64,000 nucleotides of DNA from Methanogenium sp. S4BF. Its GTDB lineage: Archaea; Halobacteriota; Methanomicrobia; Methanomicrobiales; Methanomicrobiaceae. The translations under genes and the position numbers were made by a program. The notes beneath the pieces were generated by a model. The model made no database searches. It was not told where the DNA came from and was given only the letters and a program-made list of their open reading frames with translations. This document shows positions 34,665-34,832 of the stretch, piece after piece (position 1 is the first letter of the stretch; each line of letters starts with the position of its first letter). The stretch spans positions 865,940 to 929,939 of the forward strand of contig NZ_CP091277.1 of assembly GCF_029633965.1 (NCBI RefSeq). Reading direction: 5' to 3'.

Positions 34665-34832
34665 GGGGTCGTGGCCTAGTCCGGCATGGCGACGGGCTCC
34701 AACGGTCTTTGCGTATGATGAACAATGGGTCTACTGAAAACCTGATGATGACCCGTTGGAGCACTGATGCAAGTCGTGCTCACGCATGTCGGAGAGACCC
34801 GTCGATCGTGAGTTCAAATCTCACCGACCCCA
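34665..34832 (+). tRNA. tRNA-Trp (anticodon CCA) with a 94-nt intron
   Basis: Exon 1 34665-34702, exon 2 34797-34832. Acceptor GGGGTCG/CGACCCC perfect; anticodon stem ACGGG/CCCGT; loop C-T-CCA-A-A gives anticodon CCA; T-arm GTGAG-TTCAAAT-CTCAC. The intron sits at the usual 37/38 position. A bulge-helix-bulge is visible: CTCC (34697-34700) pairs with GGAG (34791-34794), flanked by 3-nt bulges AAC and AGA that hold both cut sites. A T-run follows. Confidence 0.96.
34703..34796 (+). ncRNA. tRNA-Trp intron acting as a box C/D methylation guide RNA
   Basis: The intron has box C ATGATGA (34715-34721), D' CTGA (34734-34737), C' within TGATGATGA (34743-34751) and D CTGA (34764-34767), with terminal stem TTTGC/GCAAG. 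The guide before D (CCGTTGGAGC) pairs with GCTCCAACGG of the exon 1/intron joint, placing the fifth base from D on C34. The guide before D' (GGGTCT) pairs with AGACCC at the intron/exon 2 joint, placing the fifth base on C39. The same architecture is known in other Euryarchaeota, where it directs 2'-O-methylation of nucleotides 34 and 39. Confidence 0.92.

Follow-up and report, generated by a model that had tools for sequence, protein, structure and literature searches.

The window, the 64,000-nt stretch of Methanogenium sp. S4BF DNA analysed here, comes from a 2.51-Mb genome in a single contig (G000) and contains a tRNA-Trp gene split by an intron with the layout of a box C/D guide RNA (Table 1). 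ARAGORN at default settings did not call this tRNA; the Rfam tRNA model matches across the whole gene. Apparently directly downstream lies a gene that, from its sequence, we take to encode formaldehyde-activating enzyme.

Table 1. Features of the tRNA-Trp gene and its intron (positions within the window).
Feature	Position	Strand	Basis
tRNA-Trp(CCA) gene	34665-34832	+	Rfam tRNA 48.5 bits, exon parsing
tRNA-Trp exon 1	34665-34702	+	exon parsing
94-nt intron between positions 37 and 38, box C/D guide inside (sR3 type)	34703-34796	+	Rfam RF01133, homologous introns
Bulge-helix-bulge central helix, 5' strand CUCC (C32-C35; predicted)	34697-34700	+	sequence, both strands retained by homologous introns
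Terminal stem I, 5' strand UUUGCG (predicted)	34708-34713	+	sequence, inference
Box C AUGAUGA	34715-34721	+	sequence, sR3 alignment
D' guide AUGGGUCU (nts 9-2)	34725-34732	+	pairing with AG|ACCCGU, intron/exon 2 junction
Box D' CUGA	34734-34737	+	sequence
Box C' AUGAUGA	34745-34751	+	sequence, sR3 alignment
D guide CCGUUGGAGC (nts 11-2)	34753-34762	+	pairing with GCUCCAA|CGG, exon 1/intron junction
Box D CUGA	34764-34767	+	sequence
Terminal stem I, 3' strand UGCAAG (predicted)	34768-34773	+	sequence, inference
Putative anti-guide element GUGCUC	34776-34781	+	complementary to GAGCAC 34759-34764 (D-guide nts 5-1 and C of box D)
Bulge-helix-bulge central helix, 3' strand GGAG (predicted)	34791-34794	+	sequence, conserved in homologues
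tRNA-Trp exon 2	34797-34831	+	exon parsing

Boxes, guides and splice site

The Rfam sR3 model (RF01133) matches the intron with its full model length, between 34711 and 34769, at 59.8 bits (gathering threshold 41, E = 2.4e-12), and no substantive difference from the family was seen; the RF01133 consensus itself has a GGGUCU D' guide, of the C39 type, as does the window. We checked the coordinates and boxes of the intron RNA letter by letter, and the boxes stand in the order C, D', C', D, as an initial annotation of this DNA had them, within an intron at the 37/38 site. A UGAUGA starting at 34743 overlaps box C'. Both guides cross a splice joint, as that annotation had also claimed. The target of the D guide comprises seven bases of exon 1 and three of the intron and forms a 10-bp duplex (guide nts 2-11), and that of the D' guide comprises two intron and six exon 2 bases in a duplex of 8 bp with one G.U. 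Under the N+5 rule, nucleotide 5 of the D guide (G34759) lies opposite C34 (34699) and nucleotide 5 of the D' guide (G34729) opposite C39 (34798), again as first read. In its ordered boxes, its junction-crossing duplexes and its N+5 sites, the RNA agrees with the archaeal tRNA-Trp intron box C/D guides (sR3/sR50).

The terminal stem and the bulge-helix-bulge, described earlier as readable, can both be placed on the sequence. Stem I would consist of six base pairs, two of them G.U, with k-turn spacing. The bulges AA|C and AG|A are legible beside the CUCC and GGAG strands; ViennaRNA, however, favours a shifted register. The genome encodes tRNA splicing endonuclease domains of its own.

The two guide regions also complement one another: 34723-34731 on the D' side can form nine base pairs, one of them G.U, with 34750-34758 on the D side (CAAUGGGUC/GACCCGUUG), and the two are paired in the minimum-energy fold. 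This mutual complementarity may be a by-product of both regions matching the same exon and intron sequences.

Guide and target in the order and the phylum

The same RNA was found in 133 of the 150 Methanomicrobiales genomes (104 of the 108 good ones), which excludes chance. Exon 2 of every tRNA-Trp read from this order carries ACCCGU, which gives C39, and the D' guide is GGGUCU in nearly all of the introns read. C39 is found as well in families f8, f9, f14, f21, f28 and others, that is, in most other families of the phylum. U39 is confined within the phylum to haloarchaea, where exon 2 reads AUCAGU and is paired with a guide ending in UGAUAU, in line with the initial annotation, which had given position 39 as U in well-studied members of that group.

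Pairing partners were tallied over 149 distinct introns. With counts that are phylogenetically inflated, since base 39 switched essentially once, in haloarchaea, D' nucleotide 5 and base 39 are G-C in 121 introns, A-U in 22 and G.U in 5; D' nucleotide 7 and base 41 are G-C in 116 and U-A in 28; D' nucleotide 3 and intron position -1 are C-G in 119 and A-U in 27; D nucleotide 9 and intron position +1 are G-C in 118 and U-A in 28; and D nucleotide 2 and base 31 are C-G in 116 and U-A in 22. The guide-target co-change expected of an sR3/sR50 guide is therefore present in relatives, and across the phylum the D' guide co-varies with base 39, a covariation that the initial annotation had proposed to look for among related methanogens. 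Because intron positions +1 and -1 switch with their guide partners, the co-change also provides an evolutionary argument for the unspliced precursor as the target that has been selected and conserved.

One lineage, L124, combines C39 with A41 and has a matching guide; it appears to be an intermediate, consistent with stepwise change. The most parsimonious reading within the phylum, the range over which base 39 was compared (its state elsewhere being taken from reviews), is that the change would have occurred in haloarchaea and not in the methanogen. Of what had been proposed for base 39, the joint change of guide and target holds over the 149 introns; the idea that C39 was the altered state in this organism does not, as C39 is order-wide.

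Box-less homologous introns in close relatives had been named as evidence that would speak against a guide. Among the readable introns of the order there is a single such case, L153 in G077, a decayed intron in which the splice strands survive but neither the D guide nor box D does; such a local loss does not refute the guide reading. Elsewhere in the phylum the tRNA-Trp intron is absent from f10 and f19, and in f16 it is a box-less 32 nt (L173-L176, L178, L179). Several families thus lack an intron guide, so the methyls are not essential, which agrees with the intron deletion in Haloferax volcanii, where the tRNA-Trp intron was dispensable. A search of the lineages without an intron guide for a free-standing C34 guide gave one match in 52 genomes with the exact pattern TGATGA-N{1,9}-YTGGAGNNCTGA, which a divergent guide could escape. 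Relaxed patterns found no tRNA-Trp exon in G053 and G092, by loss or through an assembly gap, and in G133 the intron is interrupted by an N gap.

Some introns vary in other ways. Five from the order (L053, L054, L055, L056, L057) reach 129-207 nt through long inserts between D' and C', where their relatives have a short loop. In L067 (G013), one or more additional nucleotides ahead of box D' would move the N+5 site off base 39. The haloarchaeal f13 introns L133, L134, L135, L136 and L138 place a D' guide G opposite U39, a G.U at the methylation site itself. An f8 assembly (G240) carries an f6-type tRNA-Trp intron (L192) on a small contig, probably a contamination.

A probable dual guide for the tRNA-Trp precursor

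That the archaeal tRNA-Trp intron encodes a box C/D guide, whose RNP methylates C34 and base 39, is established (PMC4090602, PMC7994747, PMC6313347). The pre-tRNA-Trp intron of Haloferax volcanii (Clouet d'Orval 2001; Singh 2004; both as cited in PMC4090602 and PMC7994747) is like that of the window an intronic dual-guide box C/D RNA acting on bases 34 and 39 of its own tRNA, with U at base 39 where the window has C. The D boxes of haloarchaea are mostly CCGA, whereas those of the window are CUGA. Pyrococcus sR50, likewise in the tRNA-Trp intron, shares location, guides and targets with the window RNA (PMC7994747, PMC6313347), although Um39 is reported in P. abyssi and the window has C39. C39 has also been listed before: for tRNA-Trp, the review PMC6313347 gives "Cm34 and Um39 (or Cm39)".

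We consider it very likely, at roughly 95%, that the window intron is a dual-guide box C/D RNA that methylates its own precursor at C34 and C39. L7Ae, Nop5 and fibrillarin would assemble on the C/D and C'/D' motifs of the intron; these partners, which sR3/sR50 guides use, are encoded in the genome, with fibrillarin and Nop genes adjacent and two L7Ae-family matches. The D guide, lying across the exon 1/intron junction, would direct 2'-O-methylation of C34, and the D' guide, across the intron/exon 2 junction, methylation of C39. Both modifications would be made on unspliced pre-tRNA-Trp, in cis or in trans, and the splicing endonuclease would then cleave at the bulge-helix-bulge. The mechanistic literature concerns Haloferax and Pyrococcus, and in Thermococcus the excised tRNA-Trp intron is circular (PMC9014305); for this organism, studied archaea serve as the model for the methylation itself, for the order of steps, for whether the RNA acts in cis or in trans, and for whether the intron becomes circular once excised.

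The shorter D' duplex of the window, with its G.U, would suit a guide that is active at C34 alone and whose C39 side is weak or lost, and the D' side departs from the canonical form elsewhere too, in the five haloarchaeal introns with G.U at base 39, in L067 with its extra nucleotide and in L056, whose D' box is CGGA. In the window, however, both D' and C' have their canonical sequence and the guide base at 39 is a G, which forms a Watson-Crick pair, and across the introns bases 39 and 41 switch jointly with the guide, which makes such a one-sided guide improbable. An ordinary tRNA intron, with its resemblance to the boxes due to chance or left over from a decayed guide, is a reading for which the G077 intron offers a precedent in the same order; it deserves almost no credence against the Rfam E-value, the intact boxes and junction-spanning duplexes and the conservation across the order, and is already refuted by the guide-target co-change.

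The dual-guide RNA of the window is thus a well-formed representative of an already known system, for which the direction of the C39/U39 change is corrected. The comparison adds broad support to the known mechanism, and the natural variants, with C39 or U39, a G.U at that base, no intron or a decayed guide, can be used to ask what both methyls do.

A putative anti-guide element

In the minimum-energy fold of the window RNA, the GUGCUC that follows box D is paired with GAGCAC. GYGCUC lies 3' of box D in many introns with a long tail, and where the 3' extension is long, GCUC follows box D in 80 of 124 introns, while shuffles give a mean of 13. The base 5' of GCUC is U where guide nucleotide 1 is A (65 introns) and C where it is G (9), with six exceptions; it thus matches guide nucleotide 1 in 74 of the 80. 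That nucleotide lies outside the target pairing, yet it co-varies with the element as A-U or G-C, even within families. The cleanest case is f3, whose sampled members all belong to one genus: at almost one and the same site, introns with A1 have U and those with G1 have C. When guides were permuted within families, a procedure that only partly removes within-family relatedness, 0 of 1000 permutations reached the observed complementarity total. Since the complementarity fit takes the best window per guide, the argument draws on the permutation and on the count anchored at GCUC and sets the raw pair table aside.

Haloarchaea have a comparable complementarity at another place. Instead of GUGCUC 3' of box D, their spacer between boxes C and D' carries ACUCCAG, which pairs with CUGGAGU of the D guide at all seven positions in 20 of 27 introns. 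We found no description of an anti-guide element in the literature, in which the primary tRNA-Trp intron work was covered through reviews, and the element may be new.

As an addition to the dual-guide explanation, the GUGCUC pairing might form a self-masking fold that keeps the D guide off exon 1 until RNP assembly or after excision, a role that we regard as possible while leaning slightly against it. The excess of GCUC over shuffles with its matching base, the permutation result, the lack of a target partner for guide nucleotide 1 and the haloarchaeal ACUCCAG/CUGGAGU complementarity all speak for masking, and in a minority of introns, L172 and L181 among them, in silico removal of the element frees the D guide to pair with exon 1. 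In the window, by contrast, removal gives no rise in guide/exon pairing; the element is absent from short introns (the Archaeoglobus-like f9, and f4), three f1 introns (L065, L257, L259) set A against C, and some within-family relatedness stays in the permutation. More tentative still is a general form of the proposal, in which many of these introns keep a third, self-directed pairing, through a methanogen GYGCUC downstream of box D or a haloarchaeal ACUCCAG upstream of D', that would mask the guide and box D, either switching the RNA between splicing-competent and guide-competent folds or silencing the excised intron. The masking role of the element is a guess, and the folding result is mixed. 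A possible anti-guide helix would give a handle on how one RNA serves as both splicing substrate and guide. In the ViennaRNA run on protection of the bulge-helix-bulge by the anti-guide element, CUC was able to pair in two GAG registers.
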